From assembly GCF_002750855.1 (NCBI RefSeq), contig NZ_NWUC01000006.1, positions 1 through 64,000 on the forward strand: a stretch of DNA of 64,000 nucleotides, given 5' to 3'. A program made the position numbers and the translations under genes. The notes beneath the pieces are model-generated. The model searched no databases. It was not told where the DNA came from and worked only from the letters and a program-made list of their open reading frames with translations. This document shows, one piece after another, positions 10,456 to 50,823 of this stretch (position 1 is the stretch's first letter; the number at the start of each line of letters is the position of its first letter). The DNA comes from Neopararhizobium haloflavum (GTDB lineage Bacteria > Pseudomonadota > Alphaproteobacteria > Rhizobiales > Rhizobiaceae).

Positions 10456-11862
10456 ATGGAAGACGTTTTGCGGCGGGCAGAGGCAACACGATCATATGCA
10501 GCGGCAGGGTGGCCCCCCGTGCGCTTGGCTTTGATGGCCCTCCTGCTGTTGTCAAGCGCCTCTGCCGTGCTGCATGCCCAGGAACCGTCCGCCGAAAAGG
10601 CCGCCAGGACCGATGCGTTGGCGGACCAGCGCGAACGCACAGCGTCGGAACTGGACGCGCTGACGGGCAAGATTGACGTGTCCAATGAGCGGTTGGCTGA
10701 ACTTCAGGCGGAAGTGGATGGCCTGCGCAAGGATGAAGAGACGATCCGCGAAAATCTGATCGCCGCTGCCGAAGCGCAACAGACATTCACCCAGAGGATC
10801 GGCGAGATCGAGGATCGATACGCTGCCTTGCGCGCCGACGAAGCCGCCATCACTGCATCGCTGAGCGAGCGCCGCGGCGTTCTCTCCGAAGTTCTGGCGG
10901 CCCTGCAGCGCATGGGCCGCAATCCGCCGCCCGCCCTGCTTGTCAGTGCCAATGACGCGCTTGCCTCGGTGCGCAGTGCCATCCTGCTCGGCGCTGTCGT
11001 GCCGGAGATGCGGGCGGAAACCGAGATGCTCGTATCCGATCTTCAAAAGCTTGTCTCGATCCGCGACTCGATCGACGAGGAACGTGTCGCACTGCTCGAT
11101 TTGCGCGAAGAGCAAGTGGAGGAAGAGCAACGCCTTGCCCTGCTCCTCGACGAAAAGCGCGCCCTGCAATCCAAGCGTGAAGAACAGCTGGAAGTGGAGC
11201 GCGAATCGGTCGCCAGGCTTGCCGAAAGGGCGATCGGTCTTCAGGATCTCATTGCTTCGCTGGAGACCGAGATCGAATCCGTGCGCGAGGCCGCCGAAGC
11301 GGCGGCGGAAGCAACACGTTTGCGTGAACGCCAGACTGAGGAGCAGATGGAGCGCGCGCGCGCCAGGGCGCGTGACGGCACGCTGGACATGGATCGGTTC
11401 GCTCCGGCCGTGCCGTTCGACGCGCTGCACGGGAGCCTAGAACTTCCAGTCACCGGCCAGATCGCGCGGCATTTCGGCGATGACGACGGCACGGGCCACC
11501 GCCTGCAGGGCGTCACGGTCGCCAGCCGGTCGGGTGCGGTGGTGCAGGCGCCGGCCGATGCCTGGGTGGTTTATTCCGGCCCGTTTCGAACCTATGGACA
11601 ACTCTTGATCCTGAATGCCGGTGATGAATATCATATCGTGATGGCAGGTATGGACCGGATCGACGTGTCGCCGGGGCAATTCGTCGTCGCCGGTGAACCA
11701 GTCGCGGCGATGGGTGAAACGAGGTTGGCCGGCGCCGCCGCCTTGGCTCTGGCTTCGACGCAGCCGACGCTTTACATTGAGTTCAGAAAAGATAGCCAGC
11801 CGGTCGATCCGGCGCCCTGGTGGGCTCTTGAGACTTCGGGAAGGGTAAGCAATGATTCGTAA
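10456..11862 (+). CDS. EnvC-like murein hydrolase activator (degenerate LytM/M23 domain)
   Basis: Periplasmic coiled-coil protein with a C-terminal M23-like domain, like EnvC, which activates amidases at the division septum. From the ATG at 10456 it has 468 residues: signal peptide to about residue 40 (RLALMALLLLSSASAVLHAQ), coiled coil about 45-310 rich in Glu/Arg/Ala, LytM domain about 335-468. The zinc ligands are missing: HxGxD reads RLQGVTV, the YAHL site reads VMAGM, and PHLHFE reads PTLYIEF. This fits a non-catalytic activator. GTG codons at 10393, 10435 and 10444 are alternative starts. Its end overlaps ctpA by 11 bases. Confidence 0.88.
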   Translation: MEDVLRRAEATRSYAAAGWPPVRLALMALLLLSSASAVLHAQEPSAEKAARTDALADQRERTASELDALTGKIDVSNERLAELQAEVDGLRKDEETIRENLIAAAEAQQTFTQRIGEIEDRYAALRADEAAITASLSERRGVLSEVLAALQRMGRNPPPALLVSANDALASVRSAILLGAVVPEMRAETEMLVSDLQKLVSIRDSIDEERVALLDLREEQVEEEQRLALLLDEKRALQSKREEQLEVERESVARLAERAIGLQDLIASLETEIESVREAAEAAAEATRLRERQTEEQMERARARARDGTLDMDRFAPAVPFDALHGSLELPVTGQIARHFGDDDGTGHRLQGVTVASRSGAVVQAPADAWVVYSGPFRTYGQLLILNAGDEYHIVMAGMDRIDVSPGQFVVAGEPVAAMGETRLAGAAALALASTQPTLYIEFRKDSQPVDPAPWWALETSGRVSNDS

Positions 11863-13174
11863 GATTTCACTCCTGTTCGCCGGAGCCCTCATGGGCGCCA
11901 CAGCGCTCAGCACCGCCCAGCAATTCGGCACGTCCGCCGAAGCGGCAAACTCCGAGACCTATGAGCAACTGTCGATTTTCGGGGACGTATTCGAGCGCGT
12001 GCGCGCCCAGTATGTGACGCCGCCGGAAGAAAAGGAACTCATCGAGAGCGCCATCAATGGCATGCTCACCTCGCTCGATCCGCATTCCAGCTACCTGAAC
12101 GCTGAAGACGCCAACGACATGCGCACCCAAACGCGGGGCGAATTCGGCGGCCTCGGCATCGAAGTCACGATGGAGGATGAACTCGTCAAGGTCATTACTC
12201 CGATCGAAGATACACCCGCCGCCCGCGCCGGCGTTCTTGCGGGCGACTTGATCTCCGAAATCGACGGGGAGTCGCTGCGTGGACTGACGCTTTCCGATGC
12301 CGTGGACCTGATGCGCGGTCCGGTGGACACGGAAGTGGAACTGACCGTGATCCGCGAAGGCGCCGACGCGCCGATGAAGATCAAGGTCACCCGAGACATC
12401 ATCACCGTTCGGGCCGTGCGGCACAGCATAGAGGACGACGTTGGTTACCTGCGCGTGATTTCCTTCACCGAGAAGACCTACGACGACCTTGCCGCGGCAA
12501 TCGAGGAGATCAAGGCTGAGGTGCCGGAGGATGAGCTCAAGGGCTATGTCCTCGACATGCGCCTCAATCCGGGCGGCCTGCTCGACCAGGCCATCAGCGT
12601 CACCGACGCTTTCCTGGATCGCGGCGAGATCGTGTCGACCCGCGGCCGCAACGAGGAGGAAAGCCGTCGCTTCAATTCGCGAGCAGGTGACCTGACAGGC
12701 AACAAGCCGCTGGTCGTCCTCGTCAATGGCGGCTCGGCTTCCGCATCTGAGATCGTCGCCGGCGCACTGCAGGACCACAAGCGCGCCACCGTGGTTGGCA
12801 CGCGCTCCTTCGGCAAGGGCTCGGTCCAGACAATCATCCCGCTCGGCGAAAATGGCGCACTGCGGCTGACGACCGCGCTTTACTACACCCCTTCCGGCAA
12901 ATCGATCCAGGGCACCGGCATTTCGCCGGACATCACCGTGGAGCAGCCGTTGCCGGAGGAGATGCGTGGGCGCGTCGAGGCGGCAGGCGAGTCTGAGTTG
13001 CGCGGCCACATCCAGGGTGAGAGCGAGACCGACGAAGGTTCGGGTTCGATCGCCTATGTGCCGCCGGAAAAGGAAGACGACATCCAGCTCAACTATGCGC
13101 TGGATCTGCTGCGCGGCGACAAGTCGGACCCGTCCTTCCCGCCCAATCCGGATCAGGCTGCCGTTAGCGACTGA
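11852..13174 (+). CDS. ctpA: Carboxyl-terminal processing protease, S41 family
   Basis: Periplasmic tail-specific serine protease. The 440 residues comprise a signal peptide (about 1-32), a PDZ domain around 90-170 (GGLGIEVTMEDELVKV, followed by AGVLAGDLISEIDG) and the S41 domain. The Ser/Lys dyad lies in GGSASASEIVAGALQ and RSFGKGSVQT. The C-terminus is Glu/Asp-rich with pairs of prolines. It overlaps the EnvC-like gene, so the two are translationally coupled; this pairing suggests joint control of peptidoglycan remodelling, since CtpA proteases cleave or regulate hydrolases in other bacteria (inference here). Confidence 0.95.
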   Translation: MIRKISLLFAGALMGATALSTAQQFGTSAEAANSETYEQLSIFGDVFERVRAQYVTPPEEKELIESAINGMLTSLDPHSSYLNAEDANDMRTQTRGEFGGLGIEVTMEDELVKVITPIEDTPAARAGVLAGDLISEIDGESLRGLTLSDAVDLMRGPVDTEVELTVIREGADAPMKIKVTRDIITVRAVRHSIEDDVGYLRVISFTEKTYDDLAAAIEEIKAEVPEDELKGYVLDMRLNPGGLLDQAISVTDAFLDRGEIVSTRGRNEEESRRFNSRAGDLTGNKPLVVLVNGGSASASEIVAGALQDHKRATVVGTRSFGKGSVQTIIPLGENGALRLTTALYYTPSGKSIQGTGISPDITVEQPLPEEMRGRVEAAGESELRGHIQGESETDEGSGSIAYVPPEKEDDIQLNYALDLLRGDKSDPSFPPNPDQAAVSD

Positions 13175-13198
13175 TCGGCAGACACCGGAAAGAGCATC

Positions 13199-13233
13199 AA
13201 CCGCGCCGAGACATTGTCCGGCGCGGTTTTTCT
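13199..13233 (+). terminator. Intrinsic terminator after ctpA
   Basis: A 10-bp stem (13199-13208 with 13219-13228) and a 10-base loop are followed by a T-run (13227-13231). It separates the envC-ctpA unit from the deacetylase gene starting at 13269. Confidence 0.8.
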
Positions 13234-13268
13234 TGCCGAATCACCCCGTGTCATGAGAGCGGTTCTAT

Positions 13269-14468
13269 GTGGGCAGCGATCTCGACAGGCCATTGGGGCA
13301 AGACAGGAAAGCACCGCGCAGCCGGCCTCCCCGGCTCGGCGGGCGATCTGCTATAGGTTTGCTTGCCATCGTCGGTATCGTCGCCTTGGCCAGCCTTGCC
13401 GCGTTCCAGAGCGACGATCTCCGCCAGACAGCCGCCGTAACCGAACCTGACGTTCCAGCTGACCCGTTGCCCGCAGCCTATGAGCCTGCCGATGCCCATC
13501 AGGACGTGACGACTGGTGTCACGCCCCGCCCGTCAGGACGTTCGGGCGCCGATGTCACCACTGAAATGACGGGAGATGGCGAGTCCGTAACCATATTCCG
13601 GCCGGGCGCACGACAGGACGACGGCCCACAGATCCTCGACGGCGGAACCGTTGGCCAGGATCTGAGGTTCGCCCACCTGCCCGAACCCGTATTGTTGGAG
13701 GAAACCGCGCAAGGCGCACTGCCGCGGCGCAGCGACACAGATCGGCCGATCGACGCCTATGCCCGCAGCTGGTCGGGCGCGCGTGGCACGCGGATCGCGA
13801 TCGTGGTCGGTGGCCTCGGCCTCAGTCAGACTGGCACACAATACGCGATCGAGACACTCCCGGAGGAGGTCACGCTCGGATTCGCCGCTGGGGGCAACAG
13901 TCTCCAGCGTTGGATGCAGGCCGCACGGCGCGGGGGGCACGAGATTGTGCTGCAGGTGCCCTTCGAACCGTTCAACGACCTGGCGGGAGCCGCGGCGGGA
14001 GAGACCCTGACGATCGCCGCCGGAGAAGAAGCCAACCTGGCCAGCCTGCACGCCGCCATGGCGCAACTGACCAACTACACCGGCATCATGAATCACCTCG
14101 GCGGCAAATTCCTTGCAGACGCCGGCGCGATCGAACCCATCATGCGCGATCTCGCTGACCGTGGGCTGCTGTTTCTCGACGATGGCACATCGGCCCAATC
14201 GAAGGCCGAACTGGTCGCGGGCGCTGTCGGCACGCCGTTCGCGGCGGCAGAACTGGTTATCGACATCAATCGCGATCGCGGCAGCATGCTGGAGCGCCTT
14301 GATGCCTTGGAGCGCGTTGCCGTGCGCAATGGGCAGGCGATCGGCGTTGCGTCCGCTTTCGATGAGAGCGTCGACACCATTGCTGCCTGGATCGAAGACG
14401 CCCGCAGCCGCAACATAGAAATCGTCGGCGTCGCCGCACTCGCCGACGATCCCGAACGTCAGCGATGA
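13269..14468 (+). CDS. Divergent polysaccharide deacetylase family protein
   Basis: Member of the divergent polysaccharide deacetylase family (DUF610, YibQ-like), widely found downstream of envC and ctpA. GTG start at 13269; [14 protein letters not shown] is the conserved rhizobial N-terminus. A TM helix lies at about 28-46, followed by a low-complexity periplasmic linker to about residue 165. The domain starts [21 protein letters not shown]; the usual first-strand Asp position reads GG here. It includes [12 protein letters not shown] and MNHLGGKF. Probably periplasmic and acts on cell-wall glycan, but activity is not proven for this family. Confidence 0.88.
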
Positions 14469-47994: not shown

Positions 47995-48474
47995 ATGAAG
48001 TCTCTCACACACGGTTCCTGGATTGCAGGCGCATTGCTCGTGGTTCTGACGGCGAGTTTCTGGAGTCCAGCCGCGTTGGCGGACGATGCCGTTCCCAATG
48101 GCGCGAGTGGACGCGTCCACTACGATCATTATCGGGACCGCGGCGGCGATCGCGACTGGCATCGCCGCGACAAGCACCGCGGCGGCTGGAGAAACGGCTG
48201 GCATGACCGTCGCGATCGGGACCGGACCAGCCGAAATCGCGTAATCATCGAAGATCGCGCGCCTGCATCCGGCGGCACCTATTCAGGTGGTATCACCAAT
48301 TATCGCGACCGTGGTAACGGCGAGTACCTCTTCATCGAACGCGATCGCGACTACGGGGCCCCGCGAAGTGGCGCCACGGTGCCGCTCGGCGCCGGCCCGA
48401 AGGTGATCAATCCTGGCGGCGCCTCGGCCTGTGCCAGCGAAGGCGGAGTTTGCGTGATTCGGCCCGGAAGCTGA
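47995..48474 (+). CDS. Secreted Arg/Asp/Gly-rich protein of unknown function
   Basis: A strong AGGAGG site lies 7 bases before the ATG. The 159 residues begin with a signal peptide (about 1-30, cleavage after AALA). The mature part is highly charged, with DR and RD dipeptides and many His and Trp in residues 38-82 (HYDHYRDRGG, WHRRDKHRGGWRNGWHDRR). The C-terminus contains SACASEGGVCVIRPGS with two Cys that may pair. No catalytic motif is seen. The basic, Gly-rich character is like envelope-associated or RcnB-type periplasmic proteins, but I cannot assign it. Confidence 0.75.
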   Translation: MKSLTHGSWIAGALLVVLTASFWSPAALADDAVPNGASGRVHYDHYRDRGGDRDWHRRDKHRGGWRNGWHDRRDRDRTSRNRVIIEDRAPASGGTYSGGITNYRDRGNGEYLFIERDRDYGAPRSGATVPLGAGPKVINPGGASACASEGGVCVIRPGS

Positions 48475-48580: not shown

Positions 48581-49945
48581 ATGATGGCAAACAGTGCGGT
48601 CAGCAGACTGAACGCGGGCATCGGCGCGCTCGAAACGATGACGCGGTTCGCTTTGGCGACATTGGCCCTGGCGTCGGGCGTCTATACTTATCTTGGCGTG
48701 CGCGGACTTCTGGACGGCGAAGCGACGATCGTGTTCTTTGCCGCCGTGATCTACTCCGCCGCCGTATCTGTCGGCATCTATGCGTTCTGGACCTATATGA
48801 TGCGGCTGTTCCCGCATGTCGCGGCCGCTGGCGCTCGAGGCGCGCTGGTCGGCGTCATGGTCCTTGGAAGCCTGATGATCGTCGCCATGTCGTCTTGGCT
48901 CAACGCGGCGGCGCTCGCCGGATCGGCGGCGCTCGAACAGCATCTCGCAGAGACGCTCCAGGACTACACGTCGGACCTTGACCGCGCGCATGAGAACGCA
49001 CTGGCCGCACAGAGCCTCCTCCCCGATATCCGCCTGGCATCCGAACGGTTTTCTCGCCTTGCTGCGGAGGAGCGTGAAAGCGGCGCACTGACCGGCACGT
49101 CGGGATCGGGAAGCGTCGTACAGTTGCTCTCCCAGATGTCCGCCCAACTTGGCGAACTCGAAACGAGCGTCACGCAATCGCGTGAACGCGTGCAGTCGCT
49201 CTTCGAAGAGGGCCAGGCGCACCTCGCCACCATGCGCGGTCTTGTCTCCGGTACGGGATCGGTGGACCCGCGGGCCGACGAATTCGCCGAACACGTGGTT
49301 TCGCTGACCGGCGTCATTGCCGCAATGGAACAGACGTCCGTGGCTCCGGCGGTCAAACGGGCGGCAGACGACCTTTCGCTTGGTTTCATTGCGCCAATCG
49401 CCGATGGCGGGGAAGCCGGCCTTGTGCTTCGCCAGGACCGCGTCATGGGTACGATCCGGCAATCCGTTGCCGCGCAGTCGACCGCGCTCTCCCAGGCGGC
49501 CGACGACATTCTCGCCAACGAGCCGGTGGCAGAGCGCCGCTTCGTTCCGCTTTCCAGTGCCGAGGCCGTGCTGCGCTACGCGCGCGACTTCGTACCGAGT
49601 TGGGCTGGTGCCATCTCGATCGACTTGCTGCCGGCGGTACTGATCATGGTTCTCGCCGTCGTTCATTCCGTGCTGCGTGACGCAGAAACGCGGGTGCCTT
49701 TTGCCGAACGCATCAGCGCAGCCGAACTGATGATGGCGATGGACGTCCAACGCGCGATCGACGCGCGCCGGCCGACGCATGACGTCGCGGTGGAGACCGC
49801 CCACGAAGAGGAAGACGCCGGGTCGCATGTCGACGCAGCCGTAGAACAGGAACCCCCGGCCGCCGACCGGGCATCCGCCCCGGAAGATCCCACGAAGATC
49901 ACGGCGCTCGCATCGCCGCATCACCGCCAGCGCAAGGACGGGTGA
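48581..49945 (+). CDS. Four-TM membrane protein with a long helical extramembrane domain
   Basis: Not assigned to a named family. The 454 residues have predicted TM helices at about 21-40, 48-70, 86-105 and 342-365. Between TM3 and TM4 lies a ~235-residue helical, Glu/Ala/Leu/Gln-rich region (about 107-340) with coiled-coil character and a Gly/Ser hinge near 170-180. The last ~85 residues are an acidic, Pro/Ala-rich tail. If TM1 is N-in, the helical domain would be on the periplasmic side after TM3, but topology is uncertain. The stop overlaps the start of the next gene (ATGATG), a ClpP-like protease. Confidence 0.8.
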   Translation: MMANSAVSRLNAGIGALETMTRFALATLALASGVYTYLGVRGLLDGEATIVFFAAVIYSAAVSVGIYAFWTYMMRLFPHVAAAGARGALVGVMVLGSLMIVAMSSWLNAAALAGSAALEQHLAETLQDYTSDLDRAHENALAAQSLLPDIRLASERFSRLAAEERESGALTGTSGSGSVVQLLSQMSAQLGELETSVTQSRERVQSLFEEGQAHLATMRGLVSGTGSVDPRADEFAEHVVSLTGVIAAMEQTSVAPAVKRAADDLSLGFIAPIADGGEAGLVLRQDRVMGTIRQSVAAQSTALSQAADDILANEPVAERRFVPLSSAEAVLRYARDFVPSWAGAISIDLLPAVLIMVLAVVHSVLRDAETRVPFAERISAAELMMAMDVQRAIDARRPTHDVAVETAHEEEDAGSHVDAAVEQEPPAADRASAPEDPTKITALASPHHRQRKDG

Positions 49946-50823
49946 TGGCAGCCGGGCAGGAGAGTCCCGCGATGCAGCAGCAACGGGCGTCGCCGTGGCC
50001 GGTAAGACGCGGCTCCCCACCCGCAAACAGCAATGACGCCGGGCGCGAACGGCCAGCCTCCGTGCCGAGGCTCGGCTTTCTGAGGACGCTCGCACAGCTC
50101 GACGATGGAACGCTTTTCAAATGGTTGTTCCGGCTCATCCTTGTTGGTGGCGCCATCGTGCTGGCCCTCGACCTTCAGGCGATCCGCGAAGCTGCCACGG
50201 CATCCGACGGCAGCACGCCCAGCACAATTGAGGTCCTTCCACCTTCGTTGAGTGACGGCAAACCGGATCAGCCACCCTTTGAGATCACGAGCGATCCTGC
50301 AACGCTGCGCGGGGCGCTGCAGTTCGAACTCCTGCCCGAAGGCACAATGCTGCTGCAAGGCGCCATCGATCCGGGCGCAGCGGATCGCTTCGAACAGGAG
50401 ATCGCCGAACGCGGAGAGTATGTCGCAACGATCGCGCTCGATTCGCCCGGCGGCGCCGTTGACGACGCACTCGCGATCGGAAGGCTGATCCGTGAACGCG
50501 GCTTCGGTACCCGAGTGGAAAGCGGCGCACTGTGCGCTTCGTCCTGTCCGATCGTGCTGGCCGGCGGCATTGAGCGAACGGTCAACGAGGAAGCGGTAAT
50601 CGGCGTACACCAGGTCTACGGCGCCGCAAGTGACTTTCCGTCTGCCGCTCATGCCATGTCGCAAGCGCAGCATACCACTGCAAAGGTCTCGCGTTATCTC
50701 GAGGCGATGGGCATCGCGCCTGGCCTCTGGCTGCGCGCATTGGAAACGCCGCCGGATCGGCTGCACTATCTCACGGCGCAGGAATTGGAAGATTTCCAGG
50801 TGACGACGCCGCTTGCGGAATAG
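49942..50823 (+). CDS. Membrane-anchored ClpP-like (COG3904-type) serine protease homolog
   Basis: The 293 residues comprise a disordered N-terminal part, one TM helix at about 59-79, and an extracytoplasmic ClpP/crotonase-fold domain (about 110-293). LDSPGGAVDDALAIGRLIRE (residues about 166-185) is the oxyanion-hole strand and loop; GALCASSCPIVLAGG holds the likely nucleophile Ser at about 200, between Cys 198 and Cys 202; GVHQVY contains the His at about 223. The shape matches predicted periplasmic proteins of COG3904. It overlaps the coiled-coil membrane protein gene by 4 bases, so the two act together. Confidence 0.85.
   Translation: MMAAGQESPAMQQQRASPWPVRRGSPPANSNDAGRERPASVPRLGFLRTLAQLDDGTLFKWLFRLILVGGAIVLALDLQAIREAATASDGSTPSTIEVLPPSLSDGKPDQPPFEITSDPATLRGALQFELLPEGTMLLQGAIDPGAADRFEQEIAERGEYVATIALDSPGGAVDDALAIGRLIRERGFGTRVESGALCASSCPIVLAGGIERTVNEEAVIGVHQVYGAASDFPSAAHAMSQAQHTTAKVSRYLEAMGIAPGLWLRALETPPDRLHYLTAQELEDFQVTTPLAE

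Follow-up and report, generated by a model that had tools for sequence, protein, structure and literature searches.

Two adjoining genes in the window (the whole 64,000-nucleotide stretch of DNA analysed here) encode P1, a membrane protein of an unnamed family, and P2, a membrane-anchored protein with a ClpP fold. The locus raises the question of whether the two products act together and, if so, in what way. Both open reading frames were confirmed, and the features referred to below are as follows.

48581..49945, + strand: P1, a polytopic membrane protein of 454 amino acids (ATG start; TGA stop at 49943)
48644..48904, + strand: TM1 to TM3 of P1, about residues 22-42, 49-71 and 87-108 (AlphaFold2, with hydropathy for TM2 and TM3; limits approximate)
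48905..49594, + strand: helical bundle of P1, about residues 109-338, probably periplasmic
49082..49120, + strand: glycine loop of P1, residues 168-180, shared in part by distant relatives
49595..49669, + strand: TM4 of P1, about residues 339-363; its W341 and D348 do not vary, even in the distant relatives that were aligned
49942..49947, + strand: P1/P2 junction, GTGATG, overlapping the P1 TGA by 4 bases with a GTG start and by 1 with an ATG start
49945..50823, + strand: P2, a membrane-anchored ClpP-fold protein of 292 amino acids (ATG start; GTG at 49942 possible)
50113..50181, + strand: anchor helix of P2, about residues 57-79, with F62 (50128-50130) and D76 (50170-50172) conserved where P1 is present
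50317..50811, + strand: ClpP-fold domain of P2, about residues 125-289, predicted extracytoplasmic
50443..50454, + strand: SPGG of P2, residues 167-170, a ClpP-type oxyanion-loop motif whose role is assigned by homology
50533..50550, + strand: CASSCP of P2, residues 197-202, with Ser199 (50539-50541), the putative nucleophile, flanked by invariant Cys197 and Cys201
50608..50610, + strand: His222 of P2, the ClpP-type general base by HMM alignment to ClpP

An earlier note on this DNA had given the junction as ATGATG with a 4-base overlap; the letters are GTGATG, ATGATG being the start of P1, and the 4-base overlap stands only if P2 starts at the GTG.

The gene pair and its distribution

Immediately 5' of P1 lies an ORF for a secreted-like, Arg/Asp-rich protein of 159 amino acids (47995-48474), which had four relatives in the genus, its own copy included, and one weak match elsewhere when 21 genomes were searched. 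As read from the translations, sdhCDAB-like ORFs also lie upstream, on the opposite strand, and a GGDEF protein is encoded downstream of P2, also on the opposite strand.

P1 was found in 24 of 61 relatives, the window's own genome included, where a single copy lies beside P2. P2 followed directly 3' of P1 in 23 of the 24, with listed starts between -4 and +22 bases from the P1 stop and, at one of these 23 loci, a nearest start at +60. In genome G052 contig ends interrupt the pair, and on the second contig the tail of P1 precedes P2 by 24 bases. The flanks mostly vary, so that only P1 and P2 are common to most loci: the window's neighbours on the sdh side are found again within its genus and in a few further lines, and a few other neighbours are shared by small groups elsewhere. 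A scan of named genomes gave the same arrangement: at all 80 loci kept from at least 557 relatives, P1 is followed in the same orientation by a P2 match; a 4-base overlap was present at 51 of the 80, given the script's choice of start.

Among 298 genomes of the family, P1 orthologues (E<1e-120) were present in 107, the window's own included, P2 orthologues (E<1e-70) in 119 and both in 106; six genomes with weak or partial P1-like matches and 91 with only weaker ClpP-like matches to P2 are left out of these counts. The genes are adjacent and on the same strand in 105 of the 106, and in G496 they are apparently split at contig ends. P1 stands alone in one genome (G449, checked on 13 kb), where 8 of its 102 near-invariant columns are changed at scattered positions, and P2 stands alone in 13. 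The count of adjacent homologues that the earlier note had proposed as a check therefore comes to 105 of 107 P1-bearing family genomes with P2 adjoining. Its foreseen objection, that the homologues might co-occur in near relatives only, does not hold, since the pair is adjacent in ten families, counting the window's own and the contig-split G052 (genomes outside the family: G041, G045, G049, G053, G054, G057, G075, G307, G214 and G391). Two wider samples were scored for P1 presence only: across the order 57 of 297 genomes had P1 orthologues at E<1e-140 and 61 had any match, and across the phylum 17 of 349 had P1-like matches, every one within the same class.

The pair is also carried on replicons such as Sinorhizobium meliloti pSymB and a Phaeobacter inhibens plasmid. 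On pSymB of S. meliloti ABS7 it is flanked by response-regulator genes and a potassium-channel gene; on P. inhibens pPGA1_262 (L184:6275-10297) P2 (PGA1_RS20515), annotated as a Clp proteolytic subunit, lies behind P1 (PGA1_RS18465), and the pair sits between genes for an MgtC/SapB protein and a lytic transglycosylase. In G544 (L222:4668-6136), P1 is read as two overlapping ORFs with P2 intact behind them, reflecting either a frame change or a sequencing error. No description of the P1-P2 pair was found in the literature searched, a search beyond whose reach most subscription papers lay.

The predicted proteins

AlphaFold2 models P1 as long helices (mean pLDDT 78, from a 62-sequence alignment), those at the N-terminal part spanning residues 2-45, 48-76 and 83-144. 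TM3 extends into a helical domain some 230 residues long, followed by TM4 and a low-confidence tail, and this architecture of four TM helices with the domain between TM3 and TM4, as the earlier note had read it, is borne out by the model and, for TM2 and TM3, by hydropathy. The topology is likely N-in/C-in, with the bundle in the periplasm, because Arg residues mark the N-terminus, the TM2-TM3 loop and the segment behind TM4. The mean conservation of P1, taken over 160 pairs, peaks at 0.91 in TM1, with 0.90 in the glycine loop, 0.85 in the first bundle helix and 0.84 in TM4.

P1 matched nothing above cut-off in Pfam or NCBIfam and nothing in PADLOC or PHROGs at E<=0.01, and its model had no Foldseek match with E<=0.001. 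Sub-threshold Pfam matches to TMF_TATA_bd, ALIX, YGGT and DUF1517 were dismissed as noise. No SPFH (Band_7) match was listed for P1 at E<=1, nor for 11 members of the superfamily at E<=0.1.

Eleven distant full-length or part-length relatives of P1 were examined and no P2-like neighbour was seen near them, although several of the fetched stretches are short, so that absences there mean little. A VirD4/TraG-like gene was present in the fetched stretch at 6 of the 11 distant loci (Pfam-confirmed for three) compared with 0 of 26 core loci. Taken together, the missing P2 and the VirD4/TraG neighbours mean that the ancestral partner of P1 may differ. Behind one distant relative, in G167 (L182:1029-3381), lies an ORF that overlaps it by 8 bases and encodes an N-terminal hydrophobic stretch and a HEIGH motif. 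This ORF scored 17.7 bits against Peptidase_M48, under the cut-off of 20.3, and is the only case seen. Among 35 other genomes of its family none had a match to the HEIGH ORF and one had a remote P1-like match, and the idea that P1 relatives regularly have another type of protease beside them was accordingly rejected in favour of a single case. Zn-metallopeptidase-like ORFs near other distant relatives may be the usual genes of mobile elements. Near a distant P1 relative and a VirD4/TraG gene at L221, a CBASS-like set occupies 10838-13538 on the - strand (patatin phospholipase, CD-NTase and E2-like).

These relatives bear on the possibility that P1 is a channel, transporter or sensor, with its invariant TM4 Asp and conserved glycine loop, and P2 an accessory regulator. 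W341, D348 and loop glycines are conserved in distant relatives that have no P2 neighbour, which points to a core function of P1 independent of P2. However, P1 matched no such family above cut-off and its model no structure at the Foldseek threshold given above, and core P1 is seldom found without P2; we regard this reading as rather improbable.

P2 belongs by fold to the ClpP superfamily, as judged from modelling, and lacks the conserved Asp. The earlier note had described one anchor helix and an extracytoplasmic ClpP-like domain with a DSPGG loop, a CASSC site and a conserved His; fold and motif evidence agree with that description, the domain's location being predicted, and P2 shows the ClpP/crotonase fold whose absence would have counted against it. 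Pfam CLP_protease scored the window P2 at 15.3 bits, under its cut-off of 20.2, and matched 18 of 25 P2 homologues at E<=0.1 (best 6.3e-6). P2 was also considered as a phage head-maturation protease, but NCBIfam Clp_rel_HeadMat reached only 32.6 bits (cut-off 120), the PHROG matches were weak (best 3.5e-6) and the neighbours resemble sdh, GGDEF and metabolic genes, so this identity was set aside.

The putative catalytic residues are strictly kept: Ser199, His222 and SPGG are each present in 158 of 158 P2 sequences from genomes with P1 and in 13 of 13 from genomes without it. At the third catalytic position, where we take the ClpP Asp to lie, the HMM alignment places L273 and no acid is conserved; the nearby D271 is Asp in 12 of 25 and 47 of 62 homologues. 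P2 thus has the invariant Ser and His of a Ser-His-Asp triad and not its acid, and because of this it could be a serine peptidase that works with a Ser-His dyad. The same gap is the argument for P2 being a non-peptidase that uses its ClpP fold for binding or as a scaffold. Against this, Ser199, His222 and the oxyanion SPGG are conserved as catalysis would demand, and a non-peptidase P2 seems to us distinctly improbable. Cys197 and Cys201 are the sole Cys residues of P2 in 59 of 62 homologues, and their position on either side of the nucleophile means that a disulfide between them could shut or set the active site.

P2 in genomes without P1

Thirteen of the 119 P2-bearing family genomes lack P1, and all of them fall within a single clade, surrounded by neighbours that all carry P1. 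On the P2 tree P1 status has to change five times, with at least three of the changes forced by well supported branches, and a quick tree gave six losses and one regain; loss of P1 is a simpler reading than regain. In this clade a secreted-like protein of about 120 amino acids is encoded upstream, at 24 of 117 loci searched. The order third gene-P1-P2 was found in 13 loci, among which two pairs are the same genomes under two identifiers, and in 11 of the 13 P1-less loci the third gene stands before P2, from which it seems that P1 has gone from between two genes that stayed. P2 may have the product of this third gene as a partner or as a substrate. The protein has a DSfGNLVi...GYKRIvVG-type motif and a Cys near the C-terminus, and the copy at L066:8095-8463 had no Pfam match. 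The gene was not found in the window or at three other loci of the genus, and its product shows no clear kinship to the 159-residue protein encoded 5' of P1.

We compared the 13 P1-less P2 sequences with 158 from P1-bearing genomes, which remain of 160 distinct pairs after two were dropped. Where P1 is present, 30 positions reach 95% conservation or more, 27 in the ClpP domain and three outside it. The 27 are retained in 344 of 351 cells of the P1-less sequences, and SPGG, CxSxC and the His in 13 of 13. The three outside behave differently: F62 of the anchor falls from 154 of 158 with P1 to 2 of 13 without, D76 at the outer end of the anchor from 158 of 158 to 6 of 13 (three of the seven changes being to Glu), and P99 of the linker from 155 of 158 to 7 of 13. 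Exceptions with P1 present are few, four of 158 for F62 and three of 158 for P99, and conservation of the anchor and linker goes with the presence of P1.

Eleven related P1-bearing P2s served for comparison. Over five anchor columns that are at least 70% conserved, the P1-less proteins keep 0.45 on average and the P1-bearing relatives 0.89, compared with 0.83 and 0.90 over 78 columns of the ClpP domain. Some P1-bearing P2s keep only 0.54-0.69 of the conserved ClpP-domain columns, compared with 0.76-0.91 in the P1-less proteins, and D76 is still Asp in the most divergent P1-bearing P2s. The inferred changes of D76 are confined to P1-less branches, the end branches of which account for 3.99 of a total tree length of 47.97; those of F62 and P99 also lie on a few P1-bearing branches. 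These comparisons draw on 13 sequences, one clade and few independent events. A simple reading of the alignments is that P1 constrains P2 in its anchor and linker as an interface would, and that the catalytic domain works without P1. The anchor is changed where P1 is missing and the active site is not, which suggests that P1 and P2 touch inside the membrane.

The same genomes bear on the idea, also raised in the earlier note, that P1 is the substrate, P2 cutting it at one site to switch it on or off. Such a dedicated role would fit the conservation of the pair and the finding of P1 without P2 in only 1 of 107 genomes (G449), and there is a precedent in the stomatin operon, where the membrane peptidase 1510-N, which has a Ser-Lys dyad, cuts its operon partner p-stomatin (PMC3795559). 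However, Ser199, His222, SPGG and both Cys residues are kept in 13 of 13 P1-less genomes, so that P1 cannot be the sole substrate of P2, and the conserved anchor residues suggest docking beyond mere cleavage. We consider P1 as dedicated substrate unlikely. That P1 presents a substrate, the other role the note had offered it, fits the evidence.

Finally, the two genes might serve separate envelope functions and be joined in an operon solely for their expression, without contact between the products. P2 without P1 in 13 genomes is in line with this, as is the lack of a clean signal in mean-field DCA between P1 and P2 (160 distinct pairs, effective number 78), where the top pairs involve mostly a few hub columns. 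In the hub-dominated top 50, the impossible pairing of P1 cytosol with P2 periplasm occurred 19 times against 9.3 expected, periplasm-periplasm 21 against 24.0 and TM-TM 1 against 1.1. Yet the pair is kept while most neighbours change, and the P2 anchor residues decay where P1 is absent; separate functions without contact appear most improbable.

Proposed mechanism and comparison with known systems

The reading we prefer, and hold to have about an even chance of being right, is that P1 and P2 form one inner-membrane complex in which P1 is a platform that docks P2 and presents substrate to it or restrains it. The P2 anchor, through F62 and D76, would pack on the membrane helices of P1, and the periplasmic bundle would position or feed substrate segments near the membrane, or hold P2 in check, without ATP. 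P2 would have substrates besides P1, since genomes without P1 still keep the P2 active site. The envelope proteolysis or signalling module proposed in the earlier note stands as a conserved module, on adjacency, the ClpP fold and anchor decay; the proteolytic or signalling part stays a proposal. The natural absences of P1 make docking directly testable by two or three point mutants.

A wider version, which we put forward tentatively and judge to be on the unlikely side, is that P1 founds a second, non-SPFH class of platform, recruited in Hyphomicrobiales to dock a redox-gated P2 via anchor residues of the F62/D76 type. Its distant relatives sit in loci that resemble mobile elements, with a conjugation ATPase close by at 6 of 11. 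In this version a periplasmic ClpP-fold peptidase would be docked through one aromatic and one acidic anchor residue. The pairing gives context to an unnamed membrane family found across Rhizobiaceae and other Alphaproteobacteria, among them the model symbiont S. meliloti (pSymB), and to P2 as a probably periplasmic ClpP-like peptidase.

In HflKC-FtsH and other platforms, a non-catalytic membrane partner organises a membrane protease, as proposed here for P1; in contrast, the P1-P2 pair encodes no AAA ATPase and P1 has no SPFH match. ClpP itself (S14) is a two-ring tetradecamer fed by a Clp ATPase. P2 differs in being membrane-anchored, in having no conserved acid at the Asp position and in its two invariant Cys residues beside the nucleophile. 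It is also predicted extracytoplasmic, a location that speaks against an ATPase partner.

A further comparison is with other exported ClpP-like proteins whose site reads CxSxC, putatively COG3904-like by the label of the earlier note. A protein of the window's own genome (L002:1090-2445) has CASAC and a downstream His and is 28% identical to P2 over P2 residues 161-279, but it carries PAN domains. In this protein and another (L030:1195-2703) a ClpP-like Ser-Cys site region is followed by PAN domains (Pfam PAN_1, PAN_4), an architecture separate from that of P2.

A close parallel is with stomatin/NfeD. NfeD peptidases are kin to the ClpP superfamily and independent of ATP, and they carry C-terminal NfeD helices and a beta domain where P2 has instead a single N-terminal anchor. 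P1, unlike stomatin, has four predicted TM helices and no SPFH (Band_7) match. Stomatin/NfeD (STOPP) pairs such as PH1511/PH1510 of Pyrococcus horikoshii likewise couple a gene for a helical membrane-associated protein with one for a membrane-bound peptidase that acts at the membrane (PMC3795559, PMC2636767). Such pairing is widespread, 229 of 353 SPFH1 members having an NfeD homologue in the same operon (PMC2636767). Compared with the Ser-Lys dyad of 1510-N (PMC3795559), P2 has Ser-His, and no invariant or near-invariant Lys was found among 25 or 62 P2 homologues. The NfeD1b_N model scored P2 at 12.1 bits, far under its cut-off of 40. The P1-P2 pair would work like the stomatin/NfeD pairs yet, with no SPFH, no Ser-Lys and so low an NfeD score, is not one of them, and if the proposed docking is right it represents an independent route, comparable to stomatin/NfeD, by which a ClpP-fold peptidase is coupled to a membrane partner.
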